Below are positions 3,385 through 56,600 of a DNA stretch of 64,000 bases, piece after piece. The stretch's first letter is position 1; each line of letters begins with the position of its first letter. The notes below the pieces were generated by a model. The model was not told where the DNA came from and did not search any database. It saw only the letters and a list, made by a program, of their open reading frames with translations. The DNA comes from Bryum argenteum (taxonomy: Eukaryota > Streptophyta > Bryopsida > Bryales > Bryaceae). The translations under genes and the position numbers were made by a program. The stretch is taken from the NCBI GenBank assembly GCA_037043015.1, contig CM073326.1:13524345-13588344 (forward strand), in the 5' to 3' direction.

Positions 3385-4984
3385 AACAGAAAAGGTAGTA
3401 TAACTTTGTGTGAAAAATCAAGCATTTCCTTAGATTCTATATAATTGGTCCTATGGAAACGTATTCTCAACTCACCAAGGAACAAAAACATGATAGAACC
3501 TCAAGTTAAATCTAGTTTCAAAATTGGTTTTCTTGGTCAATAACAAACTCATTTTCTTTTTGTATCAAGGGAAAAAACTATTTTCTCCAATTTTAAAAAC
3601 AATGATAACGAATGTAGTTTTATATTTTTCAAACATATACATGTACAAGTCTAGGCCGCTTTACACGAGGGGCTTAATCATTGATGGGGCAAATTCATGG
3701 CCAAATCCCCTCTTTTGATTGGTCCAATTCTTAAAATTGGCACGAGGGCCAAGGGGCTTTACATGGGGAGTCAAGGTGAATTTTCTGAAATATTATTATA
3801 ATGGATGGGGGACAAGTCATAACACAAAAAAGTTGGGAGATACAAGAATGGAAGGCCAATTCATGGCCGAGAGGCCGTTGCTTGATTTCAATACAAATCA
3901 TTATTTCACTAAAACATTATGATGTGAACAAATCAAAAGCATGGAATGTAGCTAATAATACAAATTGGCCCCATGGCCTTGTTTTTCCTTCTACAAATCA
4001 GCCCCAAGAGCTTTAATATGGGGGACTTGGCCCAGGCTACTTTATTGAATGTTTAATGTGTTCTCCAAGTGGTCTATGGAGCCGATTGGGCTCAAAATTT
4101 GAGTGAATTGGTTTGGAGATTTGTTGGCCTTGACTCCCCATGTAAAGCGTCTCTTAGATATCTTCGCCAAGCAAGCCTCTTGCTTTGGTTCATGTTGTGT
4201 GGATTCAATTGATTAATACATTAATTGGTTCAAGACAAAAAAGAAAAGTAAAGCGTCCCTTACCAAACTTCACCTGAAGTTCATACATTGTACTGTACAT
4301 TCTTCAGCTGATTCATATCTTGGAATAATGTACTATACTGATTGAGCCATTGAATAGAAGGTGCCGGTGGCCAGTTTACCAGTCGGCAAGTGGCAAACAA
4401 ATAGTGCAAAGTGCCATATTTGAACTTGAATAAACCACTAATAATACTCTACCGACAAAATTCACCTCACTTTTTAACATAAAAAGCAGACTCAGCTGCC
4501 TGCCGCGAGTTCTACAAATGGTAGTCAGGCACCTCTTCGGAGTTCGAAGCTACGTTTGCAACGTGAATTGAGTATTGGTATACAGTTGGACAGGAATTTT
4601 GATTAGTGAGGGCCAGCAGTTCAGGCCATGGGAGGTCGGCGCTAATCTGCTCAGTATCGTACGAGCTCAACATCAACTTTGTTGAGGTACTTGACCCCTT
4701 TTCAAGTATAGTATTAATATATAAAAAAAGTCACAAATCAGTTCTTCTGTACAAACTACCACCGAAAGGAAACTGCAAGACTTTGTACAAACTTCATGAC
4801 GGAAAGCTAGTTGGTACACTTCATCGTTGTTCAAAATTTAGGCAATAGATATTTCGCTCCAATTTAGCACGGCCATTAAAAGGTCCGCTTTTTGCATTAC
4901 GACGTGATCGACGAGCCCCCGGTACGGTCATGGACAATCATATGGTATTCCATGAAATTCATCTTTTAATATCATTTGTAATTC
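3385..4984. other. Intergenic, no supported gene; one 21-bp inverted repeat pair
   Basis: No convincing coding region. A perfect 21-bp inverted repeat (3756-3776 and 4128-4148, beginning GCTTTACATGGGGAGTC on the left) encloses about 350 bp. The words ATTCATGGCC and CACGAGG recur around it. This may be a small decayed inverted-repeat element; no target duplication was identified. Confidence 0.4.
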
Positions 4985-5910
4985 AATGATATTTGAGGAA
5001 TTGGTCCATGTCAGCTGCGATCACGGTGTTGACGACAGCGGCCGGAAGTGCGATCAGCATGTCCAGGCTTTGGCGATGCAAATCTGAGCAAGCTTTTGAG
5101 TTGAGCTACTGGCAAGACTACGATAATCGCGCCCATATTAACATTGAAGGCCTTATTCGGGAAGATTAAAAGAATGAGTATCGTGCCCATATTAATCGAC
5201 TGTCGGTTGAACCAATCGGAAATTGCTGGTCCACGGCTTGAAAAGAAATCGAATCTGTAGGTTCTAACAGGTCTCCGTAACTATCACTCTCGCGAGGGAA
5301 TTCAACGACGGTCTCCACAAGTTAGCGATTCTTCATACATTTTGGGCAATACGTACGTACTCACTTCAATCTAGACCTTATTCACCTTCAGTAAGAATAT
5401 CTGCAGATTCCCTGAGGCTTCTGAAATGCAAGTTGTATGATCTTCAACCTTCAAAATACCCACGGAAATTACTCCAAATCAAAAGTGCAGAGTTGCTAGA
5501 ATTGGTAGCATCCACGATTCCACGGGTGGCATAGTTACTCCGTTGACCTGCGATGGGCTTTTCATGCATGAACTAGTTACCGCACGCCGTAAGAATTTGA
5601 CTCTTTGTACTCTGTACACGAGTATTCTTACTCTCGGTGGATACTTTACCACAGGGTATAAATACGTTTCAGTTCTTGTTAAGCGTTGAAAATCATGTCA
5701 ACTAGCAGTTTAATATTCATTTTAAGCGTTGAAGCATGTGACTACAAGTTGCGCCAAGCGAGCATTCGAGAACAAGTGACACCTAAAAGGAGGGAATTGT
5801 ATTTCTCTCAATTGATTATTACCCTGATCGATTAAAAAAATGAAGAAGAAGAGCGGGTCCGCAACTTGATTCACAGTAGTAAGAATATCCCGCATTCGAT
5901 CTCGACTCTC

Positions 5911-5916
5911 TATATA
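5911..5916 (+). promoter_or_regulatory. TATA box of Stig1 copy A
   Basis: TATATA in the context CTCTCTATATAGCGACTCC, about 124 bases upstream of the ATG at 6040. The twin gene has CTCTATAAAACGACTCC at the equivalent place, so this motif is preserved in otherwise divergent upstream DNA. Confidence 0.55.
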
Positions 5917-6039
5917 GCGACTCCGAATATCGAGGTAGTTTCAGTCCGAGACAAGCTGCACAAAAACAAAACCGCAGCGGCCATACTTGGGACTAGCCGT
6001 GCTGGTGGGACTGCTTGAACGATAGGAGTTTGACCGACA

Positions 6040-6897
6040 ATGTCTCCCAAAGCGTCTGCTCTGGTGTTGGCTTTCTTCGGTGCAATGTTGTTCCTGCAGG
6101 TTGCAGCAAACGGTGATGCTACCACCATTGATGGCCAGTCAGACGCCACCGACTTGTACAACAACTCTACAGCAGGTGAAGACTTCGGCGTTGAGACTGA
6201 AGAGTTTGGCGTGGCGAGTGAAGAGTTTGGCGTGGAGGGTATTGACGATGATGAATCTGATGTTGGTCACCATGGAGCGCGAATCCTGAAGTCCATCAAG
6301 AAGTGTCCTGATGGAAAGAAGCCGTGCAAGAAGAAGTGCGGACTCAACTTCATGACTGACCACAAGAACTGCGGGAAGTGCGGAAAGAAGTGCAAATCAT
6401 GGGCTGTGTGCACTCACGGGGTTTGCACGTGTAAGCCTGGGTTGGTTCCTTGCAAGAACAAGTGCGTGAACTTGAAGGGCGATGCCATGCACTGTGGCAA
6501 GTGCTTTGGGAAGTGCCCGATCGGGAAGGGGTGCTGCAAGGGGGAATGCTTCGACTTCACGAAAGACCCGAAGAACTGCGGGAAGTGCGGGAAGAAGTGC
6601 ACGAATGGGAAGGTGTGCTGCGACGGGAAGTGTATCAATCCGTTGAAGAGTGGGAACCACTGTGGAAAGTGCGGACAGGGGTGCTCAAACGGAGAGAAGT
6701 GCTGCCAGGGGATGTGCGTGAATCTTTCGAGTCCCATGAACTGCGGAAAGTGCAACAATCGATGCAAATTCGGGAAGACTTGCTGCGCAGGCAAGTGCAA
6801 GAACACGTTGTTCGATAAGAGAAACTGCGGCAAATGCGGTACGCATTGTGGTGCGTCTACGAAATGCCTCCACGGACTCTGTGGGTACAACGGTTAG
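6040..6897 (+). CDS. Stig1-type cysteine-rich secreted protein, copy A (285 aa, single exon)
   Basis: Predicted extracellular cysteine-rich protein of the stigma-specific Stig1 family. In angiosperms these are small secreted proteins studied in stigma exudate and pollen-tube signalling; the role here is unknown. Residues 1 to about 24 form a hydrophobic signal peptide. Residues 25-85 are an acidic region with three tandem (T/S)EEFGV-like units (about 48-66) and a possible N-glycosylation site at Asn42. Residues 89-281 are cysteine-rich with six (N/H)CGKC motifs at 111, 152, 180, 208, 235 and 263, mostly followed by a CC-x-G-x-C unit. Usual family members are about 130-160 residues, so this one is long through repeat multiplication and the acidic spacer. 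The ATG is the first in a clean frame, with a TATA box 124 bases upstream. A twin gene lies inverted at 20417-21274; eight residues differ, seven of them in the first 28. Confidence 0.9.
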   Translation: MSPKASALVLAFFGAMLFLQVAANGDATTIDGQSDATDLYNNSTAGEDFGVETEEFGVASEEFGVEGIDDDESDVGHHGARILKSIKKCPDGKKPCKKKCGLNFMTDHKNCGKCGKKCKSWAVCTHGVCTCKPGLVPCKNKCVNLKGDAMHCGKCFGKCPIGKGCCKGECFDFTKDPKNCGKCGKKCTNGKVCCDGKCINPLKSGNHCGKCGQGCSNGEKCCQGMCVNLSSPMNCGKCNNRCKFGKTCCAGKCKNTLFDKRNCGKCGTHCGASTKCLHGLCGYNG

Positions 6898-7862
6898 CGA
6901 GCACGCGCCGTGGATCATGAACATGAAGCTTCAGCTCTTAGATTGCATGCAGGCATCACGTAGGATACATCTGCCTGATTTCTAATTCTTTATTTACAAA
7001 GCATTGCGCGCTTCAAATTCTTTACAGCTATCATACATTTATCATTGACCCATCATGTTGGTCATCAATAAGATTACGTTATCCCATTCTTTCATTACCT
7101 GATATTACAGAGATAGATACTGAGTCTGATTAGGTATCATTTAGACCCAATCTAGGTTCATACTGAGAAGTCGAAACACCCCTCCGAAATTCCGAATTAG
7201 AATGGTATAACGCTTATTGCATGCCATGAGGTTGTAGAAAAGTGATTAACGATTAGCCAGCGATTTTGTCGGTGGCAAACCTCGATGGTCTCGGCTGTCA
7301 ACACTTTTGTGCATGTAGGTCCTTCCACTGATTCAATAAAGTTTAGGTCTTCACGTTCATTCTGACGGTATTCGTCGGCTTCTCACTTTCACAGTTGTGT
7401 TTGACTAACAAAATGATGAGGTTCTACAAACTCGTACAAGTAGACATAAGGTTCAGATCTGTGTTTTGAGAAGTGGCATTGTCTTGAGTTTTCGTTTTTG
7501 CCGATTCAAGTACAGGCGATAGGTATGGAGAAAGCGATCTCCAGTCATCCGGTTCTGGAACTCCAGCTGACGACCCCGATGCACATGGCTGCACGTAGAT
7601 GTCGGCTATGTTCTGTAATAGTTCAATATTGTTACATATAATATGGGTGGCTATTGGCTTCACTTGAGATGTGTGAATAGTATATCCAGATTTCCGCCCA
7701 CAGTAATTTTACTGTTTCAAAAATGGTGTGTGAATATGGAAGATCAGCGTAATAGGCTCAAGTCAGAGTATTTCGGGTCGATGAAGCTGGAAGAAGTTCC
7801 TCATGTCAAAATGCATTCACATTCATCTGAACTAGGAACTTTAATTCAGTAGCTTCTATATG

Positions 7863-9057
7863 GTACACTAGTAGGAATAGTGTCCTAAAATGTTGTAAAT
7901 TAAGTTTGATTTTAGCTTCAATTAAATGTGCGTGCAAAGTACGTGCACACGGTGCAATCCACTCAAAACGAAATAAATGTCATAGTTGAATTGTACTATA
8001 ATAACACCCTTTTTGAGTTAGCAAAAGTACACAATACTCCAAGTTGAATTATACCCTGATAAATCTATTTTTGGGTTAGTAAAAGTACACAATACGCGTA
8101 GTTGGATTGTACTTAGCTGAGTAGATTACACTTTTCTTTGTTGTTTTTGCTCGGTCTCGAGTTCTTAGGAGCTTCTAGCACGCAGTCTGCGTGCATCTTT
8201 GTTCCATGTCATTCAAGTGCTTAAAACGTAGGTGTGCTTGAGATGTAGGTGTGTAATGACTTCGAATGTTTTCAAGTTGTTTTCCCGCTATCTTCGGAAC
8301 GTTTTGAAGACAAACGGAGGAAGGTGTCTTGGAAGTGCGTCAGTGATGCAGGTATATGTGGTACCTGGCAATTTACGATCATGGTTTGAAGCTTTCCGCG
8401 ATCGATGCGGATCAATCTTTTTCAGTGACCGCTTCTCCGAAAATCAGTTGAATGCTCTGCCTTTGAAACAACAGAGCGGTGAAGGATCCGATCGCACAGC
8501 AGTAATCGAATCATGCATTCTGGCGTGGCGATGTTCTTGAATCTGCTCGCCTTACAACTCAGTTGCACATTGAATGTTTCAGAATCGTGCATGAGCATTA
8601 AATTCTAGGACTTGATCGGATTGATGTGGACTTTAACTTCACTTGATCCACCCTGTTTACTAACACTAAGCTGTCGATCGTTCGTGTTGTCAGTAGGAAT
8701 CGGGTATTGTTTGCATCCTCTTCAGTACTGGCCGTATCAGTAAATCGTGTAAGAAAAGGAGCAGCTGCATGTAGCATGGAGAATAACACCCTGAAGGTCC
8801 GTCTCCACTGGGATGAGTGTTTTTTTCACAAGTGAAATCAAAGTTCATTTCATCACTAAAAATGGAATATTTGAAAGAGGTGGAGAAATGAGTAAGATCG
8901 ATATGCCACATGAATTAACTTGTGCAAAAGCTTGAGCATATCGAACGTCAAAGAGACACACAACAATCAGAGAGATATTCATCCTCGGAAGAGGCACACA
9001 ACATGGAAAAGGCAAATGATTATGTGTTTACTATGCATCTTCTAGTATGGTCGGGCA
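7863..9057. other. Intergenic spacer, no supported gene
   Basis: Only short frames without recognisable domains. A direct local similarity, TTAGYAAAAGTACACAATAC, occurs twice near 8020 and 8080. Nothing else stands out. Confidence 0.4.
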
Positions 9058-9246
9058 TATCCGTTCAACAGATAGATAGAAACTCCGGTCCCTTTCTAAG
9101 GGGCTAGCGTGAATGAAGTGTCCGTTCGTAATGCTAATAATTATCCCGATGGCCACTGGAGTGACCGGACAAGGGGAAATTAGAACAATACTACTTCCCC
9201 CTTTCAAGGGTGGACACTATAACTACGCTAGTTTATCCGTTCAACA
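9058..9246 (-). mobile_element. Short retroelement-like insertion with 13-bp target duplication (copy 1)
   Basis: The body 9071-9233 (163 bp) is flanked by perfect 13-bp direct repeats TATCCGTTCAACA at 9058-9070 and 9234-9246. Read on the minus strand it begins AACTAGCGTAG and ends in a TCTATCTATC tail. It matches 61252-61406 over almost its full length; relative to that copy its 5' end lacks about 54 bp. Variable-length target duplications, 5' shortening and a simple tail are the pattern of SINE-like or truncated non-LTR elements. No clear pol III A and B boxes were found, so the class is inference. Confidence 0.65.
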
Positions 9247-9587
9247 CTTCAACTTGACGTGAGATGTACATGCATGTCGATCACAACAATTAAAACAGGC
9301 ATTACGGGAAAGTGTAATTAAGACATAACACTACCGAAAGTGTGTCATATAAGACAAACCTGTGAGGCTGTAACTATCGACTATCGGTAAGGTCTAATGT
9401 CATGTGACTGATAAACTTAGTGGTGTTAAGCACGACTAATTGTAATTACGCTTTGGTTGTTACTTCTACTTGTACCATCCATAGAACATGTATTTTGTTA
9501 TAATGGAAGTATTCAGTGAAAGTTATTATGAATTCAATGAACTTATGAAAGTTGAGCTTTAATGGAGCTAAATGTATCCACAGATTG

Positions 9588-9845
9588 AAACCTCAATTTC
9601 GTTAAAATGGCACTATGCCATGTGCCATTTTGTCACACCAAATCTTACATATGCGCTCACATGGAGTGTGTATTCTGTAATATCACAATCTTTTTGATAA
9701 TATCACTCCTATACATACATTGAACTCATTTTCCATAATATCACCTCCAAATTCTGTTATATCACATGATTTTTGAACTGCATTTCAGAAAGTTGAGGTG
9801 AGCCATTTTAGCGGCATAACGCCATTTTAACGGAATTGGGGATTT
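9588..9845. mobile_element. GTTAAAATGGC inverted-repeat MITE, copy 1
   Basis: Ends are CCTCAATTTCGTTAAAATGG on the left and, on the other strand, CCCCAATTCCGTTAAAATGG on the right. The interior has repeated words such as TATTCTGTAATATCAC that are shared with the copy at 13843. About 258 bp, non-coding. Related copies are at 13843-14073 and 23773-24184. The target duplication is unclear. Confidence 0.65.
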
Positions 9846-11285
9846 AGGTACTTCACCGAAATTGCACAAAATAACCAATTGTTGTTATTCTCTAATGGTC
9901 AAAACTTACTCAAATTTTGTTCAAGTTGGGCATGTGAGGTATTTATTGACATCTACTCTTTTTGTAGATGTCCAATCAACTACAAGAATCTCTTCTTACA
10001 AGATTTTTTCACGAATGAAGTGGTGCTTCGTCCATCCGACATGATTGTGCACCAAGGTTGTCTTACACTCTTACATGACACTCTTTCCGTAATTTTCCTG
10101 CTTGAAATGTTAAACAGACATGAAGTTTGACTAGAATGTCTGACCATACCATGAAATGCATAGTAAAAGCAAAAACATTTGTTTATTCAATTTCGTCTGC
10201 CTCCCATGGTGGAAAATGTATGTGTGACAAGACCGTCCTGTCAGTTTGACGTTCGACAATGTTCCATAAGACAACCTTGTTGTGCACTTGTGCGCCAAGT
10301 TCAATCTCCCTAATTGTTTCCATAAATTGTTTTTGGGACATGTAGGTTAAGAGTGTATACCTCACCAATTAGGCGCCTTAGCCATATTGCTTCCTTCATG
10401 GCTCATGCCCTCCATAATAACCATATATTTCAATTTTCACAACAAGAGCGCAACAGTCAAATATTTTTGACTATTCCACGTTATTGGCGTACTTCTAAAG
10501 AAGAATACATATCTTGTAGTTGATTTTCTTGTGGTAGGTGTCTGCTGCATAGTTCGCATTGGTGAAGCCGCACACCTTACTTTCGCCTCCCGTCCTGATA
10601 ACATGGCAAAGTTGGCGTGCCTTTGAAGTTTGAAGTAGCAATAATGTACTTGACAGCTTGCGCGCGAAGTTTCTAAGGTCAAGTCATGAAGTGGCTGACC
10701 ACACTTATAAGGAGGACGATGTATATACGAGTATGGGCCAAGAAGGTTAACTTTCCAACCATTCTTTGGTATTTTGAGACATCTTTTAGACACTCTACTT
10801 CTGATTTTCCTCATTTTGAAGCTCTAAACAGCGTAGACAGTTTGGATTTCCTTCTAGCTTGAAGGCATCTCCCATGAAAGAGTCTCTTGACGCCATTTCT
10901 ACTTGGTGAGAGTCTCACCTCTCTAATTATCTCTTATTACCTTACTTCTAAGTTCTAACTAGTTTTAATAACTAGTCAAAGTGTCGACTCCTTTACTCGA
11001 GAGTCGAGACACTTGGTAGAAAATTTAATCCCTCAAAAACTTAGCTTTGATACCATGAAAGAGATTGGGAATTTGAGTAAGATTGATAAGTTAAATGAGT
11101 TAATTTGTACTGAAGCTTGGGCATATATAATTGAGTACCCACTAGCGGGTAAATTGTAACGTCATGTACATGATTACCTTAGTGGTGTTAATCACTACTA
11201 AATGTAATTATGCTATGGCTGGTAGTTCTAATTGTACTGTCTCAGTAGGACAATAGTATAGTCCTTAATCTTGTTGGAGTTATTA
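9846..11285. other. Intergenic, short uninformative frames only
   Basis: Frames of 60-125 residues occur (for example 10437-10814 on the minus strand) but show no domain, and I treat them as chance. A stretch near 11060-11230 (ATGAGTTAA..ATCACTACTAA) resembles 8890-9460 and suggests a small dispersed repeat. Confidence 0.35.
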
Positions 11286-11841
11286 TTAACCCCTAAGAGC
11301 CCAATCAACCATTTTATGGTCGATCCCGATTTTTGATGAGCTGTACCTGGATTAAAAAAATGATTTTTTGGAATTTTTTTTAACATTCTAGAAGGTTGGT
11401 AAGCTGGGAACCACATCCAATTTACAGAACCCCGTTTGGATTCATAGATTGTTTAGAATAAGCCTTTAAACACAAATAGGGCAAAGTTTTCTTAGTGTAA
11501 GAAACTTACTATTTTGGGAAACTAATAAGGTTCCTCATAGGTTGCTTGTGGCCTCTCTCCATTTTATCATATACTATGTGATTTTAGCCAATCATAGCAA
11601 TTTCAATTACTAATAATAGAAATTACCTTTTATATTGGTTGTCAAAGTTTTACTCTCTTTAATTATTTATTAAAACAATCTTACTTATTTTAGGAAAATC
11701 AACTATATAGATCTAATTTATGGTTCAAGGTCTTTATACTATCTTTGGAGCGCTACTTCATAAGGGTTACCGAATTCATATTTTACAACAAATCTAAGTT
11801 TTTTTTCAAACCCCTCGAGCAGTCAAGCCTCTAGGGGTTAA
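11286..11841. mobile_element. TTAA-flanked DNA transposon remnant, copy 2
   Basis: The body is 11290-11837 (548 bp) between TTAA at 11286-11289 and 11838-11841. Ends are CCCCTAAGAGCCC and, on the other strand, CCCCTAGAGGCTT, so the inverted repeat is short and decayed. It lies in the left half of the palindrome with no counterpart in the right half, so it probably inserted after the duplication. Confidence 0.55.
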
Positions 11842-12399
11842 GAAAGGTGGATATGAACCGTCAAAAATATTAGGGAAGTTTTTGAATTTTTTACTTGGCA
11901 GGGAAATTGGCCCCTATGAATCTATGATTACAACAAGGTTACAAAGCTGTTCCAATCATTATATACAAATTGTACCCGACGATGTTTTTTTAGTCATGTT
12001 CTTACTTTTAATCAGCTGCCCATCTGCTCATTGGAGAAAATAAAGTCCTGAAAGAGATAATGTACCATTATGTCAGCAATAACGGATTGAATATTGTTAC
12101 CGCCAAGTAACAATTGAGGTTATAATTTTAAACTATCAATTTCTAAAAATTGCAGAAACGGATTAAATATTGTTACCGTCAAGTAGCTCCCTACTTACGT
12201 TCACTTTAAACCGGTTCATGAACCATCATGACTGTATTTCCTCTGGACTGCTTATTATCAGATTAATTAAAAAATAAAAAATAAAAAATAAAAAAAAATA
12301 AAAAAAAAGAATCGCATGAACTGCTCCAGCAATGTCGTCATTTCGCAGTAATAAATCTAGTAAATAATCATTTCTGAACTTCAAAATTAGTGATCCGAG

Positions 12400-13350
12400 A
12401 TGAGTCCACGAATCTGTACGCCGCTGCGGAACGCATGTAAATATAGGAGCGATGAGTCAATCTGAGACAAGAAATTCTACGTTTCTAATTCTATTATTCT
12501 ATATTGAACTGTGAAAGTGTTTACCGCGCTGCGGACGTTGCATCCACGGTCCAACACACGATACCCTTTACAAGAATTAGAGCATCCGCTGCGTATACCC
12601 TGTAAAATGACTCGGTAAGTGGTTTTTGGCGTGCAATAATGAGTCCCTGTTTATCGTGTAGCTACGATGGTGTGTGTCCCTCCGCACCCGTGACTGGCTA
12701 TAGGGTCACATGTTTTTCTCCTCTTTCCTTGAAAGTTGCGAGCGGGTCCCGCCACTTCATCTCCCACTTCGTTTCGAGGCAGTGCTTCGATCTCCACCTC
12801 CCCTTCCCGCCATCGCACTTGCACGTTGTCAAGTACACAGTCACTTGATCCTTTTGCGGATATCCTGGACGTGGTTCCTGAGGCTGTACCGTGACCCCGT
12901 CAAGTGACATCAAGTTGGTGTCAAAACCACTTCATTTGACGAGCCCGCCTTTTTGCCGACCGTTGGCATAGTGCCGTTGCGGCACACTTTCGTTGGCCGG
13001 GCCCGCTCACAACCTCAGCGGGACCGTTTGCAGTGTAAGGCAGCGGATGCTCTTAAAGCAATGTTCCAAGCATTTTATCAGTATTTCATGGTCCGAGGTA
13101 TTCCATCTCGAGTCGCGGCTTCACATAGATGAGTAGCTGGACACACAAATTTATGGGAAGCAAGCTGCATGTGTTCGCGGATTGATCGAGGGTACCCTGG
13201 CATGGCGTAGCTTTACACTGCTGTACAGTACAGTACTGACAGTAGTTGCAAGCTGGACATCCATGGTTCACTGAAAGTGTGCCTTACTGAGATCGGAAGC
13301 TTTTAGTGTTTGTCGAAGCCAAGAAGGGGGGACAGTGACTATTATGTCAA
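12400..13350. repeat. Left inner arm of the inverted duplication
   Basis: Matches 17030-17820 in opposite orientation. GATGAGTCCACGAATCTGTA near 12400 pairs with the complement near 17815, followed in both by GCTGCGGAACGC. The CATCTCGAGTCGCGGCTTC stretch near 13106 pairs with about 17275. ACATCCATGGTTCACTGA near 13257 pairs with about 17110. GAAGCCAAGAAGGG near 13315 pairs with about 17065. Frames of 60-70 residues inside look like chance. Confidence 0.75.
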
Positions 13351-13842
13351 ATCTCCATATTCGGCCGCTATCCATGTCCAAATGCTCAAGCTACACAGGC
13401 AAACGAGGAGATTGATTTCTTAGCTTGGCTTCACATGTTGCCTGATCGGACTGAGCAAGTATATTCCTTTTGTCAATGGTCGAAATGGAAACCACGCTAC
13501 GTAAAACAAATCAACTCAAAGTAAGCGTAAGGAGTCGCAGTTCAATTCTGGAGGGTTTTGATTATGTGAAGCTTCTGCATTGGAGTTCGCATTTTCAAGC
13601 GCTCCATATTGATTCCAGTGAAACTGCACCTGGTCCTCGAGGATCGCAGCGATCGAAAACCCTTAAAACCATCATTCAGACTCGACACGATGGCCTTGCA
13701 TGTACAGTATGCCATCTAGCTTTACGGTACTGGATCATGATTTGAATATGTTATATACAGGACCAAGCCCGGTAAGTGAGCGTTACACATACTAATGAGA
13801 GAATTTAATGGAAGGTAAGATTTGCAACTGGTTAAAGGTTTT
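13351..13842. other. Intergenic, no supported gene
   Basis: A 91-residue frame (13470-13745) shows no domain and has no counterpart in the mirror half. Nothing else seen. Confidence 0.3.
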
Positions 13843-14073
13843 AACCTCAACTTCGTTAAAATGGCACTCACATATGGGCTCACTTGGAATGATGTATTCT
13901 GTAATATCACAAATTTCTCAATCATATCACTCCTTTCTATACATTGTGACCACTCATTTCCCATAATATCACCTTCAAATTCTGTTATAACACATGGTTT
14001 TTGAACTGCAGTTCGGAAAGTTGAGGTGTGGCATTTTAGCGGCATAAGTGCATAACGCCATTTTAAGGGAATT
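13843..14073. mobile_element. GTTAAAATGGC inverted-repeat MITE, copy 2
   Basis: The left end, TAACCTCAACTTCGTTAAAA, pairs with TTTTAACGCC-type sequence at the right (GGCATAACGCCATTTTAAGG region near 14050-14073). The interior shares TATTCTGTAATATCAC and CCATAATATCACC words with copy 1. A run of about 20 T follows directly at about 14071-14088. Confidence 0.6.
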
Positions 14074-15005
14074 TTTTTTTTTTTTTTTCCAGACTTGTAC
14101 CACATTGTCCTGATGAATCTTGTACGTCCAGAACTTCCTGCATGTCCAGTTACACGATTTTACGTAAATAAACTCTTTTAATTGTACCTCCCGTAGATGC
14201 AGCGTTCGATGCAGTTGTTTCATCCAATCATTCTTTCGTCTCCCATAGTCGACGCTGATCCATATATTATCAAGCTTAGTACAGTCTCAAGCTTGATTCA
14301 GTTCAATTCTTAGCTGTGTTACTCACAAATGGCATTCGATCGGATGCATCACATTCGTAGTATTTTACAACTCCGGACCATGAGCGGCATTGGGAAGCAT
14401 CGACCAAACATTATATTCAGCTGTGGACGGAGTGAAAGTACTCCCTTGTAATGTTCATGTTCTCGTTCAAGTTCTTTCTCACCCTGGCCTAGCCGATGAA
14501 GGCTTGTATTATTTTCTTGCAATGAAACTACTTCCATCTGCGAAAAGAAACAAAGAATAACAACAGTTTACCAAAGCGCCTTGCAAGAAACAGGTGGTCA
14601 TGTAAATACAACGATCGTCAGAAACTTCAAACTTTCGATAACCTCAATGGCGAATTCAGTGACAAATTGTGCTTGAATCCTGCACTTTCAGTTACGACAT
14701 GTGTGAACGTGTTCGAAGGCCACATCGCCGACTGCCTTTTCAAGCAACAACTTCACTTTCATCTCAATCATGGGCATACAGGGCTCGATCAGGAAGCCAC
14801 TTCCAAACTAGGAGATAGATACATGAATTGTTTAAAAATTAATAATAAAAAACAAACTAGGAGATTGATTTTTTTGGTTCCATACTCCAAAGGAACAGTA
14901 CGTCCTTACATACAGTATCTTACAGTGTGCGAGTCCATCCATAGATTGAGCCACGATGAGCGGAAGTTGGTGACCTTTGTGAAGGATCTTAGACTACCAT
15001 ATATG
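14074..15005. other. Spacer near the palindrome axis, no supported gene
   Basis: A poly(T) run opens the stretch. The frame 14667-15104 (145 residues) shows no recognisable domain and runs straight into the perfect palindrome, which argues against it being a conserved protein. I do not support a gene here. Confidence 0.3.
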
Positions 15006-15033
15006 CATGTCGAGTTGTCGACAACTCGACATG
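15006..15033. repeat. 28-bp perfect palindrome near the inverted-duplication axis
   Basis: CATGTCGAGTTGTC is followed immediately by its exact reverse complement, with no spacer, so a 14-bp-arm cruciform is possible. Its centre (15019) is within about 200 bp of the axis deduced from the inner arms (15.1-15.2 kb). Confidence 0.9.
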
Positions 15034-16293
15034 ACCATATATGCACGATCGAACTGGCTGCACAGGACGACAGAAGCCACTGGTCAGTTCAGACTTTATT
15101 ATAGATCTGATTTCGGCGACTTTAAAATTCGCGACAAATATCATATATGTTGATCACTATATTATACATTTTGATCGGTGCTGGTGGTAGTTGAGACGGT
15201 TTGTTCGTAGAATGAACGACGTCACCGCGACGGTGATGACAAGGATGCGCGCGTTTGTGATGTACCGCCATCCTAAAAATGGAATGACATTGTTGGCCAG
15301 CTGAAGTTACAGTCGTCATCGAAAACACTGAACTTTTGTTATATATATTTTTTATTTCTTTACTTTTTTGTTTACAATCAATGTATCGATCAATTGAGAG
15401 AAATACAATCAAGAATACAGGAACCAATTGAGAGAAATACAATCAGGAATAAAAGTAGCAAGCTATTTGGAGAAGAGAAATTTCTGTGATTTGATTAATA
15501 AACCTCGTTGCTACTTGATACTTTTGTCATATTTTAGAAGTAAGCACTACGACATGTATCACAAATTGGAATAGCAACCTTGGCTATACATTATAGAAAA
15601 TGAAGCACGCAGGAAAGACAACAAGTGTTAGAGTAGAAGGTGAGAGGTAGAAAGGAATTACCACATAATTAGTTAATGGATTGGAGACATTTGTTAAAAG
15701 GCCCTTACGATGCAAACATGTAAGTTTTCATTGTTCCTAAGTAACCTTGGTAACATATGTGTCCATAATGACAACATGTCCGTAGAAACTTGTTGCTTAT
15801 AACAGGCCACAAGTCCTGTCATTGTCATTACAATAGGCCACATGTTGTATCATTGCAACCATAACTTGTCCAAAATGAGAAAATGACTCCCCCGCTTGTT
15901 TAAAAGCAAGTTTAAGCCATTACCTGAACATCCCCCCATCTCTAAGGACAAATGACGATTGTGTAATTTTACCATGAGGGGTTAAATACCAAGTTGATAA
16001 GCTCTGAATGACTGAAGCAAATTTTCATTGGACGTGTATGTCAAGACAGGCAATGAGAATGGGCCAAAAAAGCTGGGTATTTAAAACACAGGCTCAAAAC
16101 ACAGGTTCAAAACACAGTATGCGGCTATGGCACACTATGGCTGTCAGCGGACTCGCCAATGGGAACAAGACAACAAACGTATATCGTAATATGAGGGGAT
16201 GAGCAGTAAGTATGGTTCCACACTTGTCGGCGAAAATTTAAATTCCCAGATATAAAATGCTAATTAATCTGGGGAATAGAATGTACAGACGAT
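15034..16293. other. Spacer, no supported gene
   Basis: AT-rich. Short direct words such as AATTGAGAGAAATACAATCA occur twice (near 15390 and 15425), and AGGCCACA repeats occur near 15800-15845. The frames of 64-106 residues show no domain. Confidence 0.35.
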
Positions 16294-16404
16294 GACCCAC
16301 GATAGTTCAGGAGGTACAGTAAATGCTTGTGACCCACGATTGTTCAGGAGGTACAGTAAATGCTTGTGACCCACGATTGTCCAGGAGGTATAGTAAATGC
16401 TTGC
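16294..16404. repeat. Three tandem copies of a 37-bp unit
   Basis: Units start at 16294, 16331 and 16368. Each contains GACCCACGATTGT followed by CAGGAGGTACAGTAAATGCT. Copies differ by a few substitutions. The minus-strand frames over it merely reflect the repeat. Confidence 0.9.
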
Positions 16405-17029
16405 GACGCATTTTGACCAAGTGGTCGTAGCTGTCAAGATTTTTTCTAATTTCCGACTTGCCGACTGCACGTGATAAACAGAAAAACCTGTTCATTCGAT
16501 TTACCGGGACGGCGAAACTGGAAATAGAATATCCGACTTTGTAGTACTGCAGAGATTCATTCCTCTCCAGCGATTCTCTCGACTCGGCTGTGTAAGTTCA
16601 TCGTATACACTACGGAGAAGATGATCAGGGTTCAAGATCCAGTATAGAATTTTGTTCGGAAATTTTTGTTTATGAACTCGATGCGTGTAGACGAATACCA
16701 ACCGTGCGTAACTCAGGGGCTGGTAATCAGCTGAGATTGACCATGTATGCATCGCTGTTGGCCATGAGAGGTGAATTATGAGAGCGCTCGATGAACAACT
16801 GCATCTCGCTTGTGTATGTACAAATGCTTAGTACACCAATTGGTTCAAGGGTTTTTAGCGGGCCATCGAATTATGTAGAGAAGGCGAACCTGCAAGCGCT
16901 AAATTACCAAGTGTGTTTTACGACGACATTAATTCCTCAGTCTCCACATTGTCACGTACATACAGCACCAACAGCGGACTGAGGTTGAGTTCTTAGAAAA
17001 ATGATATGACGATTTCAATTTATTGAAGT
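16405..17029. other. Spacer between axis and right inner arm, no supported gene
   Basis: Frames of up to 83 residues without domains. Nothing identifiable. Confidence 0.3.
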
Positions 17030-17820
17030 GGCCCACAAGGACATGATGTCTCTGCCCTTCTTGGCTCCTACGAACACTGAAAGTCTTCGATCGATCTCAG
17101 TGAACCATGGATGTTCAGCCGACCTCGCCATGCAACACACGTACTAACTGTAGATCGGTGTGCCATGGCGGGGTAACAACCATCTGTAACTTTGGGTTAT
17201 GAACCCGCGAGCTCCTGCAGCATGCTTTCGTTTGTGTGTCTCCGGCCACTCATTCATGCGAAGCCGCGACTCGAGATGGAGAACCTCAGACCATCAAATA
17301 CCGATAAAATGCTCCGGATATACTTCTGTTCTTCCCAACGGGGCAACTTGAACAATCGTGCATGTGTTGGTGGGTGGATACTGTGAACGCGACGTTCATT
17401 GAAGGCCCTTTTCGGGGAAACACAAATTACAAAGGAGTTAAACATAGGGAACTGCCTAACTAGCTAGAGGTGGCCCAGATCGCTGCTTGGGTTGCCAAGT
17501 CTGCTGGGGACTGGAGGTCCTCAGGGAGGTTGAGGCCTCTGTGAACGCGACGTTCATAGCGCGACATAGAAGAAAACCAGCGGTTAACACTTTCACAGAC
17601 GTTCAATTCATGGCGCGATTTAGACGAAAACTGGCGGTAAACACTATCAAAGGCCAATACTGGACACCAGCATCAGTTTGACAATTGACACATCATGACT
17701 ATCCTGGTTTACTGATTATAATTTGTCTTTCTTATTTATCACTCTCCAAAAAGGGGTATACCAAATTATCCATATTTACACGCGTTCCGCAGCATCGTAC
17801 AGAATCGTGGACTCGTCGCT
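17030..17820. repeat. Right inner arm of the inverted duplication
   Basis: Mirror of 12400-13350 with indels; landmarks are listed with the left arm. It also contains a local direct repeat GTGAACGCGACGTTCAT at about 17384 and 17541, absent from the left arm. Confidence 0.75.
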
Positions 17821-19344
17821 GACCAACTGTATCTAAAATTCAATAATTTTGCTCCTGATTACCGTAGAATGATGATTCAGAAGCTAGGTGTAGTCCTGGG
17901 TTTTGGAGCTCAAGCTCTTGGGCCGACTTCTGCACAATTCTGAAACACGCAAATATTTACGAAGATTTGATTACTGCAGGCAGAAGAACGCATCGCGAAG
18001 AACTGCGTAGTTTGTTCACCGGTCATATTACTACTTTCGAATAGTGCGACCGGTTCCTACAAAAGTCGATTTCGTGTTTCGAAGGCAAAGCAATCAACTG
18101 TTTCCGAACTTGCGGTGATCTTACCGCGATGTTCGAGCGCAGAAGGTTAAAAATCATGATCGTAATTCCCTACCATTTTGCATGTCACTGCTGTACTTCC
18201 AAAGAAACCTCTTGGCTGTTTGTATTCAAATCTTCCGAATATAGTGATTCTGTTGGTTGGCGGCATTTCACGAGCCATTCCATGAGCCCTTTTGTCCTTG
18301 GGTGGACCGCCCGTATGGGGGAATAGGAGTCCCTTTCTCCTTGGGTGGAGGACCTTACGTAATGTGGAGAAACACGTGCAATTAAAAATTGGTTCATTAC
18401 CAAAAATAATTAGAATTTATTGAACTTTTTAGTTACCTACCTAACTTATAATAATGATGCATCATTTCTAAAATGTTTATAAAATATTCATTTAATATTC
18501 TGTAACCTTTTAACTAATATTTTACTATCTTTTCAAGATTTTACCCCCAAAATATACCAAATAAACCTTATTTTATTGCACATGTTTTATAAGTCAATGA
18601 TATACTTAGTCACACCAAAATAAGCATTTGCATACATGTAAATTTGTCAATTGATTAATATATTGATTGGTTCAAAAGAAGAAATGGTAGACTTCTATAC
18701 TATCACAAAGTCTCCCTCTAATGTCATCATCGATTTCACCACTACTGTATATATATATCACCTTGTATATATATCACCTTGTTTTATGAGTACCCTTCTG
18801 AAACATTAAAAGCTCTGATCACTTTTGGCTATAATTTATATGTTTTGGTCACTTGTGATTATTATAAGCATGTTCAAGTTTCCACCGTGGCACCATTTCT
18901 ACAAACAAACACAATTTTCACATAAGTGTGGTTCAATGAAGTAGGAAGTGAGTCAAGTGACACTAGTGCATATATGGTGTGAGTATGCTCATCATGTAAC
19001 TATACTCAAACTACATAATTATACACAAGTGTTAGAGCGTTTTGAAAACATTCTTGCAACATAGAAAGTACTGAAAAGCTTAGACAAATAGGCACCTATA
19101 CGGCTATACATTCCAAGCATTCCAACATTCTAAACACTTTGGGTGGCTTTGAACCATGAAATCATAATGAGGATGCATTCTGGATGCTAGATGCTTCTTA
19201 TAAATGCATCTTCAGAGCAAACAACAAACAAAGAAAAGTTAAATAAGCTCACTTAGATTCAACCCCAATACTCATTTCGTTTCCAAAGGACTGTAGAACT
19301 ATGATCATCATAAGCTCGCAGTATATGCACGACACTCTAACATA
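17821..19344. other. Intergenic, no supported gene
   Basis: AT-rich. Two near-identical TATATATATCACCTTG words sit side by side at about 18745-18781. The mirror interval on the left (7.86-12.40 kb) is about 3 kb longer, partly because of the three mobile insertions recorded there. Confidence 0.4.
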
Positions 19345-20416
19345 CCAGCACAGAAGCCACTCAATCGAAGTTCCCAGTACAGAATCTGAATGTAAATGCA
19401 TTCTATGAGGACATTCTTCCAGCTTCTTCGACCCGAAATACGCTCATTTGAGCATATTTCGCTAAGCTCACATGCTCACAGTATTTGTGGCACAGTAAAC
19501 TGACTGCAGGCGGAAATCTGGATACACTATTCAAAATTCCTAGGTGAAAGTGTAAAACCAATAGTCACCCTCACTACATAAAATATAATATAATATAAAA
19601 AATATCATAGAACATGGCCGACCTCTACGTGCAGCGTTGAGCATCATGGATGGTCAGCGAGACTTTCGGAACCGGAATGATGCCTAGAGATCACTTTCTC
19701 CATTCATATTAACTAAGTGTCGCCTGCACGTCTTAAATCGACACAACGGAAAATCAAACCGTCACTTCCTAAACAACAGATCATTTTATGCTGAACCGAG
19801 TTTGTAGAATGTTCATCATCATCTGGTCAGTAATACTGACTTGGAAACCGAACATGCCCATGATTGAGTTTAGAACGTCAAGAGCTAAACTTTATTGGAT
19901 CAATGGAGGACCTACCTGCACAGAGTTGTCACAGCCGAGACCTACAAGGTTCGGCACTGACTAAAGTGCTGGCTAATCGCTTTCAACTTTTCTACAACCT
20001 CATGGCATGCGATAAGCGTTATACCATTCTAATTCGGAGGGGTGCTTCGACTTCTCACTAAGCTACTCCTATGATCAGTCAACTGGGGAAACTAGTCACC
20101 TAATTTGTATCTCAATGATATCGTTAGACTACTAAAGATCTCCCGGGAAGGGAGTTGACCACTATACTCCTACAGATCAGTATCCAGTAACTATCTCTGT
20201 AATATAAGGTAATGAATGAATGGTATAACGTAATCTTATTGATGACCAACGTGTGATCAGTAAAGAATAAATGATGAATGTATGATTGCTACAAAGAATG
20301 CGAAGCGCGCAATGCTGTGTACATGAAAAGAATGAATAATCAGGAAGAACGGGCTACGTGATGCCTGCATGCAGACTAGTGCTGAAGCACCACGCCCACC
20401 ATCGTTCGTGTGCTCG

Positions 20417-21274
20417 CTAACCGTTGTACCCACAGAGTCCGTGGAGGCATTTCGTAGACGCACCACAATGCGTACCGCATTTGCCGCAGTTTCTCTTATC
20501 GAACAACGTGTTCTTGCACTTGCCTGCGCAGCAAGTCTTCCCGAATTTGCATCGATTGTTGCACTTTCCGCAGTTCATGGGACTCGAAAGATTCACGCAC
20601 ATCCCCTGGCAGCACTTCTCTCCGTTTGAGCACCCCTGTCCGCACTTTCCACAGTGGTTCCCACTCTTCAACGGATTGATACACTTCCCGTCGCAGCACA
20701 CCTTCCCATTCGTGCACTTCTTCCCGCACTTCCCGCAGTTCTTCGGGTCTTTCGTGAAGTCGAAGCATTCCCCCTTGCAGCACCCCTTCCCGATCGGGCA
20801 CTTCCCAAAGCACTTGCCACAGTGCATGGCATCGCCCTTCAAGTTCACGCACTTGTTCTTGCAAGGAACCAACCCAGGCTTACACGTGCAAACCCCGTGA
20901 GTGCACACAGCCCATGATTTGCACTTCTTTCCGCACTTCCCGCAGTTCTTGTGGTCAGTCATGAAGTTGAGTCCGCACTTCTTCTTGCACGGCTTCTTTC
21001 CATCAGGACACTTCTTGATGGACTTCAGGATTCGCGCTCCATGGTGACCAACATCAGATTCATCATCGTCAATACTCTCCACGCCAAACTCTTCACTCGC
21101 CACGCCAAACTCTTCAGTCTCAACGCCGAAGTCTTCACCTGCTGTAGAGTTGTTGTACAAGTCAGTGGCGTCTGACTGGCCATCAATGGTGATAGCATCA
21201 CCGTTTGCTGCAGCCTGCAGGATCAACACTGCACCGAACAAAGCCAACACCAGAGCAGCCGATTTGGGAGACAT
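20417..21274 (-). CDS. Stig1-type cysteine-rich secreted protein, copy B (285 aa, single exon)
   Basis: Inverted twin of the gene at 6040-6897, with the same predicted role: a secreted cysteine-rich Stig1-family protein with signal peptide, acidic spacer and six CGKC motifs. The protein differs from copy A at residues 5, 6, 12, 16, 18, 21, 28 and 67 only; residues 68-285 are identical. In the DNA I found only two differences between the codon for about residue 28 and the stop, whereas the signal-peptide codons, leader and 3' region are clearly diverged. The ATG at 21274-21272 is preceded by the leader GATAGGAGTTTGACCGACA, also shared with copy A. Both genes look intact and have TATA boxes, so both may be expressed. 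The two genes point towards each other across the palindrome axis. Confidence 0.9.
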   Translation of the reverse strand: MSPKSAALVLALFGAVLILQAAANGDAITIDGQSDATDLYNNSTAGEDFGVETEEFGVASEEFGVESIDDDESDVGHHGARILKSIKKCPDGKKPCKKKCGLNFMTDHKNCGKCGKKCKSWAVCTHGVCTCKPGLVPCKNKCVNLKGDAMHCGKCFGKCPIGKGCCKGECFDFTKDPKNCGKCGKKCTNGKVCCDGKCINPLKSGNHCGKCGQGCSNGEKCCQGMCVNLSSPMNCGKCNNRCKFGKTCCAGKCKNTLFDKRNCGKCGTHCGASTKCLHGLCGYNG

Positions 21275-21396
21275 TGTCGGTCAAACTCCTATCGTTCAAG
21301 CAGTCTCACCAGCACGGCTAGACCCAAGGATGGCTGATATGGTCTTGCTGATGTGCTGCTTGACTCGAGATGGAAGCACCTCGACGTTTGGAGTCG

Positions 21397-21403
21397 TTTT
21401 ATA
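21397..21403 (-). promoter_or_regulatory. TATA box of Stig1 copy B
   Basis: TATAAAA on the minus strand in the context CTCTATAAAACGACTCC, about 123 bases upstream of the ATG, at the same place as in copy A. Confidence 0.6.
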
Positions 21404-22527
21404 GAGTGTCCCGAGACCGAGGCGGGAATTCTTGGTTATGTGAACCAAGCTTCCCTCCTTTCAGTTCCCACTTGCTCGTGCACGCTCGGCGCCACTTGTG
21501 CGACCTCTTTGTTGCCTACAGCTTGTACTTTCAGTGAACCTAGTTAGTACAATTGCCGGTTATAGCTGGTACATACTTCAACGCGAATGAGTTGACGTCT
21601 TTGTCAACGCTTCATATGAACTGCAACGTATATCTACAGTGGTAAAGTATCCACCGAGAGTAAGAATACTCGCGAACAGGGTATAAAGAGTCAAATTCTT
21701 ACGACGTGCGGTAACTAGTTCATGCATGGAAGCCCATCGGAGGTCAAAAGAGTAGTTGTGCTATGTTCATGAAGGCTACCAATTCCAGTAACTCTTTATT
21801 TTGAGTCGAAGTAATTTCGTGGGTGTCTCGTAAGTTGAGGATCAATCAGAGTCCATTATTTCTCTTCGAGCATGCAATGGCTCAATAATGTATGTGTAGC
21901 TTACGTGGTTCTATTCCATGAATTCAAGCGAAAAAAGAAGTAGAGTCATCACAGTATTTCTTATAAACAAACATTGGCCAAGCTCCATATATGATTCTCT
22001 GGAGAAAGATCAGTGCTGGTGCTAGTGTTCACATTGAGATAGCCGACTGTCAACCAAATAGATCGCCATTTCATTTGAAACAAAGAAACCAAAACTTAAG
22101 GGTGTGCATGTGACCTGACCTTCGATTCAATATCTGAATGATTGTGTAGGCCAGTGTTACTATATAGTTACCTGCAGTGCTTTGCATCTCAGAGGCCTTC
22201 TGGACTCTGCAAATACTCCTAATGGTAACTAAGTGTAGATTGAAATACGTACGTACAGTATACCCCGAAATGTATGAAGAATCGCCAAGTTACGAAGACC
22301 GCTTAGGACCTACAGATTCAAGGTTCTGATATTTCTGCAAGCCATGGACCTGCAATATTCAATTGGTTCAACCGACATTGGATATTATGGGCGCGATTGG
22401 CGTAGTGTAGTGTCAGGAGCCCCAACTTAAAAGCAGCTGAGATTTCCATCGCCATAGCCTAGACAACGTGATCGCGGTTCTGCCGCCTGTCGTCAATACC
22501 GTGATCGCAGCTGACATGGACTTGGTC

Positions 22528-45000: not shown

Positions 45001-45830
45001 TTAACCCCTAAAGTCAAAAGAGCCCAAATCGGGTCGTTTGGGATGTGGTCAAGCCCGAATTTACTATATTTAGTTCGTATGAAATTGAAATCTTTTGCAA
45101 GTTAAAGAGTTTTACCATATCTTTCCGAAAAGTCATTTCATGCTCCAAAATTCTTCATACTTTAGGAGATATTCACGGTCAAAGTTTGAAAACACTATTT
45201 GAAATTTGCCCAAAACTGCCCAAACTAAGGTATATGCTCGTTTATTCTCAAAATCTGCCCAAAATAAATAAGATCGTAGGAACTTCAAAAATTCACCAAA
45301 AATTGAGATTTTACTTTTTTTTCAAGTTTTGTTTTCTGTACTTGGAAATAAGGTTTTAAGGCATAGTTTCACCGTTTGGATCTTTCATCCAGGCAATTAT
45401 TCTTCACATGCCATTTTTATCGTCAATGAGGGGCCTTTGAAATTGAATTTCAGCATACCTCCATGTGAATAATCAAGCATTTCTTTAGGTTTTATGGGTC
45501 GCATGAGGGTAAAAATTACTTAGGAACAAGAATTTGAAGAGCCTCATTTCAAGTCTACTCTTGAAGTTGGTTTTTGGGCTCACAAAATACTTCGAACCCA
45601 TTTTGCAACAAGGGGAAAAAACTTTTTTTTTGGCTTTGAATGTTACGATCTCACAATTGGTAAGGAATTCTATACTAAGTTTTGGTACGCACATACATGA
45701 ACAAGTTAGGTACAAGATCTTACGGTTACTTTGAGATTACGTCAAACCTTTAAAACTTTCATCTTGCATTGAAAGAGGGTGGTTCTGAGGAGTTGCGACA
45801 ATGTTGGGGGCTTTCGACTTTAGGGGTTAA
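45001..45830. mobile_element. TTAA-flanked DNA transposon remnant, copy 6
   Basis: The body is 45005-45826 (822 bp). Ends are CCCCTAAAGTCAAAAGAGCCC-like on the left and CCCCTAAAGTCGAAAGCCCC on the other strand at the right, with TTAA at 45001 and 45827. It is a close relative, in opposite orientation, of 58745-59427, and of the host element at 28558. It provides the uninterrupted version of the site used by the nested insertion at 28727. No transposase frame. Confidence 0.75.
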
Positions 45831-53683: not shown

Positions 53684-56600
53684 TTATGTGTTGCTGCAGT
53701 AGACTTGGCATTTGATGATTTGTCGATTCACAATGAAGCCAGGATTGAGCATGATACTGATCTTGGATCTTGCGCCACCATGCTGGTCCTCCTCGAAAGA
53801 CGTGACCTGCTCCATGAAGCGGGCGTCGAAGTCTGAGGCCGGGGAGACGCGGAAGATGGACACGGGATGGTCGAAGGCGAATGCCATGTGGTGTACCAGC
53901 CACACTGCTTTGACGGCGTTGAAGAAGGCGGACATGAGTTGGAGAGTGATTTCATTCTCTGCAAGCTTGCCTAGTTGGGAGAGAATGAGCTCCATGCGCA
54001 CCACGAAGAAGCGGTGGAAGTTGGCGTTCACCACTAGTGCGCCGGGCTTGCCTAGTGACTTCTCGATCGTGCTCCACTCCTGCCCTTTCAAGCTCTGGAA
54101 GGCTTGGTACGATTGTTGTTTTAGTGTGTCTGGACAGAATACTGAGGAGGCTCCGTTGGGCTCGAAGCTCACGTTCTCGAAACTCTCAAACAGCACCTGT
54201 CAAAGCATCGCCCCACTCATCGTTAAAATGGCAACCTCATTCAGAACACGAGCACCCCTGAAGTTGATCTATCCGACTGAACCTCCATACTGGCTTTAGT
54301 GCACACTGGCACTGCTGAGAATGCAGAAAAGAACAGTAAGAAGGAAGAAAACATGGTAAAGTGGAAAGTGACGCGAGGAGGAGAGACTAAGGCGCAATGC
54401 AAAGATATCATCATGGCAAAGTTGTAGTAAAGTGATGTGAGCAATTTGTGTGTACACGCAAAGTAAATTGAAGATTGGACCTCTTAGAAGCATCATTTGT
54501 GGACCATTCTAAAATCTGTCAAGAGTTTTGAAGTTTAACTTGTAGGTAATCCCAAAATGCTACAAACTAGATTTTCACAGTGAGTATATTGAAAATCAGC
54601 ATTTTAAGATATTGAAAATCAGTGTTTTAAGTTAGTATGTACCTCTGTGAAATTCACCCCAATGGGTCATTTTTGGATTTGCACCAATATCATACAATGC
54701 TACCTTAGTGGGTGACAAGATGATATAAATGAATAGTTTAGTTTTATAGCAGGAGAAGCACAATCGCTTACACTTTACATGACTCTATGCAGAGTGGCAT
54801 ATCAAAATGAAACATGAAATAACACCAATTGAGGTTACTGAGAGAACATTGGCCGTAGTAGTACCCTACCGGTCACTCTCAGATAATTTAGTGTCAATTT
54901 AGCTCACAGTTGGATCATAAGAGATTCACAGCATTCTAGGCCCATTACAGATTGAGGCTTTTTCTCATCTCCTGTTTAAAAGGATTAGTTATTGGTGTTC
55001 GTGAAATGATTAGTAATGTATGAAACTGAGGGAATGAAGGTAGGGTATGGCAGTACCTGGTTGAGGAACGACTCAAAGTAGAGGATGATGACATTCCGCG
55101 GCATGCGAGCCACAGTGCGACCCACTTTGTGCTGCTCAAGGAGCGCAGTAATGACCTGCGTAGCAGACTCGCCATTTTCACGAATATGGTGACAAAGCGC
55201 AGACGCCAGTTTCCGGAGCGTAGTAATAGCATCCTCAAACACTTTCAGAAACCCCTCGGGAGTCAGTTCCTGCGACGGAAACCTCGCAATTGGAGCCACC
55301 GCCGGCGGGTCGCCCGATAGATCTCTCCTTCCCACAATATATGTCGCAGCACTAGTACTACTCCGACGGTCCGCCTCAAGCTCCTCGATATCCCAGAGTC
55401 CGCTACTGCGCGCGCTCAGTTTGAGCTCCAGTTCATTGCACCGGTGCGTCAGCTGCCGAACCTTCTCGTCGGAAGCTTCGAGTGCCGACTGTAAAGCGAT
55501 AACCTCGTCTACGGCCGATGCGCGCTTCTGATTCGCTTGCTCCAGCTTGTAGCGGAGTGTTTTGATTGTGTAGTCTAGGACTTTGAGAGAATCGGAGTCC
55601 GCTTTCACGCTCCCGAGATCGTCTGATTCTATGAAAGACTCTGGTGACTGCTTGTGGTTTGCTGTGGGGTTGGGACCTCCGGATTTCCTCCTGCCCCAGC
55701 TCCGGAAATTGAAAATGTTGTAGGAACCGGACTTTTGTGTTGAGGCTACCTTCTTGCCTCCTAGTCTGATTGGCAGTTCACCTGACTGATCCAACTCACT
55801 TGAAAGCTCTACTGCAGTCACGAAGAAATGCTATCAGGATTCCACAACATTGTTTTCTTCTCTTCCAATCTCTCAACAGCACACTTGTACAAGATCATGG
55901 TTGAAACACTAACAGTGATTCAAAATATTGTTTCATCCTGCCCTAATGTCAGTGATATTTCAACCTTGTCGGTGCACTGTCAAATGTACAATTATCCGTT
56001 TCAGACACTAATGGCATGCTGAAACACTAGTGCAAAAATTGACTGAAACATTATTACCAATGTGTTTCAACCATGAACTTGCACTACTCGACAGCCACTA
56101 CCAAGGTCATAATACACTCAACGCGGCAATCCAAGCAATCGAAGAGGTGGACACATCGATGTAATCAAACTGTGAAATGATCAATTTACGAGTCAAATCT
56201 TTCAATGATTAAATCCTGAGATTTGAAATCATCCCCAATGATTGCATTGTTTGAAGGTCTAACTTGTGTGATGATCGTGACACAGTGGCGATGATAGTGT
56301 GACAATTGTGCGGATGGAATGTAATCGGAAAGAGCACGGACCTTGACGGTCAAGGGCAGGAGCACGGTCCATGGCTTGAACGCCGCCGCCATCGCCACGA
56401 TCCCGCCAGCTCGGGACAGCCGATGAATTCACAGCAGCTGCGGTCGCTCGTCCTCCAGTGGTACTATTCCCCTTGAACGAGTTGTTGAGGTCTCCTCGCG
56501 TCATGCCCCTGGCGCCACCAGTGGCCGTCGCCGGCGACATCGCACCGCGGATGGAGCTTTTCCATGTGCGACCCGGCGACCTGTCCTTGGACACTGACGG

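Follow-up and report, generated by a model that had tools for sequence, protein, structure and literature searches.

Genes and features of the locus

The window, i.e. the whole stretch of 64,000 nucleotides that was analysed, lies on contig C6 of a Bryum argenteum assembly of 258.8 Mb in 25 contigs. Two genes, designated A and B, were found tail to tail, one in each arm of an inverted duplication (Table 1), and their products had 97% amino acid identity. Both exceeded the curated cut-off (24.1 bits) of the Pfam Stig1 profile (PF04885), with scores of 140.2 bits for A and 139.6 bits for B; four Stig1 repeat stretches were matched by the profile in what is a cysteine-rich protein with several Stig1 units. 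Codons 1-27 appear, from their hydrophobic sequence as judged by eye, to be a signal peptide, and the proteins are accordingly described here as putatively secreted. A larger duplicated block was considered and rejected, as self-BLAST of the window paired the arms only over about 5004-7857 / 22521-19352.

Several repeats were noted in and around the arms. The short stretch that is present in arm A and represented by a gap in B had 7 further matches in the genome among those listed, at 84-87% identity, and is probably the remnant of a dispersed element. In the spacer, a 475-base dispersed repeat (12579-13053) was 96-100% identical to at least nine other genome sites, and from this identity it is probably a recent insertion; another of about 535 bases (11285-11820), for which at least 30 near-full-length copies with 89-93% identity were seen among the 40 candidates scored out of 4,785, is perhaps a solo LTR. 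Elsewhere in the window, a second inverted repeat pair (45001-45830 / 58745-59427) had 90-91% identity, its left copy being in two pieces set apart by about 144 additional bases, and a probable GIL1/IRKI-like plant gene was located on the minus strand at 53684-57748 (Pfam GIL1_IRKI_C at 53684-54196). An open frame adjoining this match (54985-55821) had 16 relatives in the protein search, with identities of 43-87%.

Table 1. Positions of the genes, arms, tracts and putative promoter elements in the window
Feature	Positions	Strand	Basis
Left arm A, running inwards from the promoter side to the 3′ side	5004-7857	+	Self-BLAST pieces and alignment
Short A-only stretch, gap in B	5796-5852	+	Genome DNA search and alignment gap
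Putative TATA-like box of A, within diverged DNA upstream of the tract	5912-5917	+	By eye
Best-fitting conversion tract in A	5993-6904	+	Maximum-likelihood single tract
Gene A, 285-aa Stig1 protein, one open frame	6040-6897	+	ORF and Pfam
Codons 1-27 of A, differing from B by six nonsynonymous and zero synonymous changes	6040-6120	+	Nei-Gojobori counts
Core tract A: codons 68-285, stop codon and 7 bases 3′ of the stop, zero differences	6239-6904	+	
Spacer between the arms, with dispersed repeats at about 11285-11820, 12579-13053 and 13867-14073	7858-19351		
Right arm B	19352-22521	-	Self-BLAST and alignment
Core tract B	20410-21075	-	
Best-fitting conversion tract in B	20410-21321	-	Column mapping (5992 pairs with 21322, 6905 with 20409)
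Gene B, 285-aa Stig1 protein, one open frame	20417-21274	-	ORF and Pfam
Putative TATA-like box of B, TATAAAA	21397-21403	-	Alignment read by eye

Divergence between the arms and edges of the tract

In the upstream flank (5004-5988), 173 of 787 aligned bases differed between the arms, with 16 gap events, and in the downstream flank (6905-7857) 204 of 917 differed, with 23 gap events, the combined divergence of these homologous flanks being 22%. Divergence on the right began at the eighth base 3′ of the stop codon, with differences at 40 of 214 aligned bases in 6905-7122 and at 164 of 703 in 7123-7857. The original prediction that about a quarter of the positions differ directly on both sides did not hold on the left, where only 7 of 72 bases differed in 6051-6122 (9.7%) and 2 of 62 in 5989-6050 (3.2%), and the jump was situated at about 5988; the adjoining segment, 5872-5988, which holds the TATA-like box of A, differed at 39 of 117 positions (33%). 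Within the gene, differences fell to 2 of 116 in 6123-6238.

Change-point likelihood placed the best single tract at 5993-6904, with 10 differences in 912 columns, and this model was 156 lnL units better than uniform divergence; edges within 2 lnL were 5986-6102 on the left and 6897-6904 on the right, so that the limits proposed earlier (6119-6905) had to be moved. On this fit, the tract probably starts some 80 bases past the putative TATA-like box, within the 5′ untranslated region, leaving the diverged promoter outside. Division of the tract into two tiers at 6239 (10/246 on the left, 0/666 on the right) gave a further gain of 13 lnL, and this fit suggests an older, longer conversion followed by a later one confined to the body. 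The advantage of the two-tier model rests partly on amino acid changes, which selection can sort, and at neutral-type sites the left and right parts (3/109 and 0/132) differed with p = 0.09, which alone is no proof of two events.

The identical core and its silent sites

Residues 68-285 had been described as identical in the two proteins, and the comparison bore this out, since the longest run of identity between A and B was an exact match of 666 bases and codons 68-285 contained no difference in 125.3 synonymous and 528.7 nonsynonymous sites (Nei-Gojobori). From codon 28 to codon 285, one synonymous difference (in 151.5 sites) and two nonsynonymous differences were counted. The base differences between codon 28 and the stop, given as two in the earlier reading, were three (positions 6122, 6150 and 6238) when codon 28 is included and two when it is not. 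The probability of finding no change in 125 silent sites was 3e-14 at a silent rate of 0.22 and 2e-6 at a rate of 0.10.

The length of the run was evaluated by shuffling the aligned columns 20,000 times in each of two sets, and this procedure together with the change-point likelihood took the place of a formal GENECONV analysis. Compared with the 666 bases observed, the longest runs under shuffling were 101 for columns 5439-7857 and 190 for columns 5872-7122, under a null that assumes even divergence and is therefore too generous. As divergence is uneven in ordinary Stig1 duplicates too, the shuffle result is not decisive by itself; the silent-site count is independent of it.

Perfect identity across 666 bases would also be produced if one body sequence had been entered at both loci during assembly or polishing. 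Such an artefact is in our judgement very improbable, because both arms lie within one contig, each with its own diverged flanks. Moreover, 666 bases are fewer than an ordinary long read spans, polishing would not be expected to replace sequence that differs by 22%, and the differences at 6122, 6150 and 6238 were retained inside the tract.

Search for a donor and related sequences outside the window

When the 258.8 Mb assembly was searched at the DNA level, simple repeats and very common words being omitted, matches were returned for the two arms only, and no third copy that could have served as donor was found. The next best protein match in the assembly by E-value had 45% identity over residues 150-269. 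DNA matches to the flanks were likewise confined to the two arms, save that one short dispersed stretch also matched 7 other sites among those listed. Overwriting of one or both genes by a body that came from a third copy or a reverse-transcribed mRNA is made conceivable by the position of the tract, which lies within the presumed transcript, starts about 80 bases past the TATA-like box and contains an uninterrupted coding frame. It is nevertheless extremely unlikely, as that search yielded no third copy and the tract ends 7 bases past the stop codon, so that no 3′ untranslated region or poly-A was copied.

The best match in the protein search (P0001) has a length of 201 aa and comes from a contig of 912 bases (source 'lgn'). 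At the eight residues that distinguish A from B, it was B-like at 5, 6, 28 and 67 and A-like at 12, 16, 18 and 21, and it was unlike both at residues 11, 53, 74 and 126. A recombinant origin of this protein was considered and set aside, since the mixture of residues in its signal peptide is also compatible with ordinary lineage-specific changes on a three-branch tree. The protein is shifted in frame past residue 151, and its final 48 residues corresponded to the translation of gene A in another frame (48/48); from this agreement, the underlying DNA must differ very little from the tract, even at silent sites. The source is probably the same or a close species.

Comparison with other Stig1 loci

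A cluster of Stig1 open frames (L056-L061) was located at about 4.71-4.88 Mb on the 6.99 Mb contig C11 of the same genome. Its duplicated blocks, present in both orientations, had about 9-15% difference events in eight aligned block pairs. These eight pairs, in which one pair of loci occurs twice with two blocks, made up a set of ten alignments together with A/B and a self-overlap of locus L069, the last being dropped as a tandem repeat compared with itself. L069 (G000:C6:18975000-18980500) has a 619-codon frame with ten Stig1 matches among those listed, six of which have start points spaced at exactly 168 bases, and is thus a tandem array of Stig1 units.

The longest identical runs in the eight control alignments were 46-227 bases. 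Seven of them exceeded the expectation under even divergence (expected numbers from 0.0088 down to 5e-8; 0.17 for the eighth), and the A/B run was nearly three times the longest control run despite a higher overall divergence. That longest run, 227 bases from L059:3621, belongs to the inverted pair L059/L061 and lies within a Stig1 frame (3568-4035), over which two 250-base steps had 3.2% and 4.8% difference, compared with 5.2-16.4% in the other nine; pS over the frame was 3 in 104.5. This pair may be a milder parallel to A/B. In L058/L059, divergence dipped to 2.8% inside the frame and to 1.2% outside it, where the longest run (112 bases, L058:3094) was found, so that low-divergence dips are not confined to Stig1 coding sequence.

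Among five Stig1 frames of the C11 cluster, read from stop to stop and thus possibly including non-coding codons, pS in the ten pairs was 0.029-0.363; the two lowest values were 0.029 and 0.047, from pairs that may themselves be partly converted, and the other eight were 0.109-0.363. Silent sites of other Stig1 frames therefore diverge and codon choice is not frozen in these genes. Strong purifying selection on protein, codons or RNA, which would have kept the body alike since the duplication, draws on the cysteine-rich nature of the body, on its GC3 of 0.75 (about 0.5 in codons 1-81) and on the two low pS values, but it can be given next to no credence in view of the 0 of 125 silent sites changed, of the eight pairs with higher pS and of the unexceptional GC3, for which values of 0.44-0.80 were obtained over the corresponding stretch at eight other Stig1 loci. 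With the body inside that range, GC-biased conversion was likewise discarded as a long-term sign.

Outside this genome, two putative paralogues of Ceratodon purpureus, P0010 (KC19_10G066000) and P0015 (M758_10G062600), which are annotations of two isolates and were compared at the protein level only, were identical at 182 of 183 body residues and at 40 of 74 aligned N-terminal residues. One further protein record (P0011) carried two neighbouring gene names, M758_2G078900 and M758_2G078800.

The putative signal peptide

Codons 1-27, with the differences listed in Table 1, comprise 59.8 nonsynonymous and 21.2 synonymous sites. Absence of silent change in 21 sites has a probability of 0.005 at a rate of 0.22, and on this ground these codons were probably converted once too. 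The nonsynonymous differences (6/60) were more frequent than differences at nearby neutral-type sites (3/109), an excess that is only suggestive (Fisher p = 0.07). Six amino acid changes with no silent change, located inside the tract, match neither a simple recent tract nor an untouched flank, and two histories can be proposed: relaxed or favoured changes may have come after an older conversion, or the conversions may have missed this patch. On the side of the body, the amino acid differences between A and B are T28I and G67S.

Discussion

Taken together, the analysis revealed that 1) near-identity of A and B is local and includes silent sites (0/666 bases, 0/125 silent sites), with homologous flanks that are diverged (173/787 and 204/917), 2) the identical run is longer than expected by chance (666 versus 101 and 190), which holds at much shorter lengths for seven of the eight controls as well, and 3) a donor is present in the same genome, the two DNA matches being the two arms. 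Comparison of synonymous with flanking divergence is in line with this, since the silent sites of the body are identical and the flanks differ by 22%. The proposal of recent gene conversion, made originally from the sequence alone, is thus strengthened by the silent-site counts (0/125.3 for codons 68-285 and 1/151.5 for codons 28-285, compared with 22% in the flanks), and we consider it highly probable that recent interlocus conversion between the inverted copies is the best explanation.

A possible course of events is as follows. An old inverted duplication gave rise to the two tail-to-tail Stig1 genes, as is shown by the arms with their 22% flank divergence. Much later, a break in one copy may have been repaired from the other by homologous recombination, by which a stretch of about 0.9 kb would have been copied, starting in the 5′ untranslated region and ending shortly 3′ of the stop codon, where the arms lose their likeness. 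Extension of the heteroduplex was probably limited by the divergence of the flanks, and this would have kept the tract inside the coding region. We lean towards at least two conversion events, in which case the first would have extended over 5993-6904 and a later one would have renewed about 6239-6904. The outcome would be mature proteins that are nearly identical, apart from T28I and G67S if cleavage occurs near residue 24-27, with diverged promoters and signal peptides. Neutral-type differences within the tract, 2/62 in the untranslated region and 1/173 at synonymous sites, add up to about 3/235 (~1.3%), compared with 22% in the flanks; if rates are equal, the last homogenisation would have roughly one-twentieth of the age of the duplication.

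The A/B pair represents a sharply bounded natural ectopic conversion in a moss, and illustrates a way in which the promoters and signal peptides of duplicates can drift with a single protein body preserved. There is a consequence for dating as well: where age is estimated from the coding sequence of genes like these, an old duplication will seem recent (about 3/235 in the tract versus 22% in the flanks). Leads for recurrent homogenisation in mosses are the A/B pair, the 227-base run on C11 and the two Ceratodon purpureus proteins. By analogy among them, we tentatively raise the possibility, which we regard as doubtful at present, that conversion homogenises the cysteine-rich bodies of moss Stig1 duplicates again and again and leaves their promoters, signal peptides and acidic pro-regions to diverge, by which the same secreted protein would come under different control.

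In flowering plants, Stig1 proteins are secreted and function in the pistil; mosses have no stigma. A and B resemble the members of the Pfam Stig1 family, such as the STIG1-like proteins and GRIM REAPER of flowering plants, in having cysteine-rich Stig1 repeats, and differ in being 285 aa long and containing several Stig1 units; a length of about 150-170 aa is found for many of the flowering-plant matches listed. In our limited literature collection, no paper linking STIG1 with gene conversion was found; a study of RALF knockouts in a moss names a Stig1 protein in the legend to a figure (PMC9933782). Conversion as a process is already known, and A/B is a new case with unusually clean edges. 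Repair by homologous recombination is described as more prominent in Physcomitrella (PMC4990234). Tandemly arrayed genes of Physcomitrella are highly similar, perhaps via conversion, according to a statement cited in PMC3045890; A/B are similar to these arrays in being moss duplicates that are kept alike, gene conversion having been suggested there. That statement, as given in the source, concerns tandem arrays generally, whereas A/B are one inverted pair with mapped edges and diverged upstream and 3′ flanks.

A comparable arrangement is that of the hsp16-48 modules of C. elegans, for which conversion between adjacent inverted paralogues is described (PMC3966223). Both systems have two inverted duplicates with a homogenised stretch, but unlike the modules as described there, the conversion tracts of A and B are separated by about 13.5 kb. 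Surviving Caenorhabditis conversion tracts are mostly 50-200 bases long, ranging from 12 to 2,958 in Table 1 of that paper; the A/B tract, at 666-912 bases, is therefore long compared with the typical Caenorhabditis tract and lies within the range reported.
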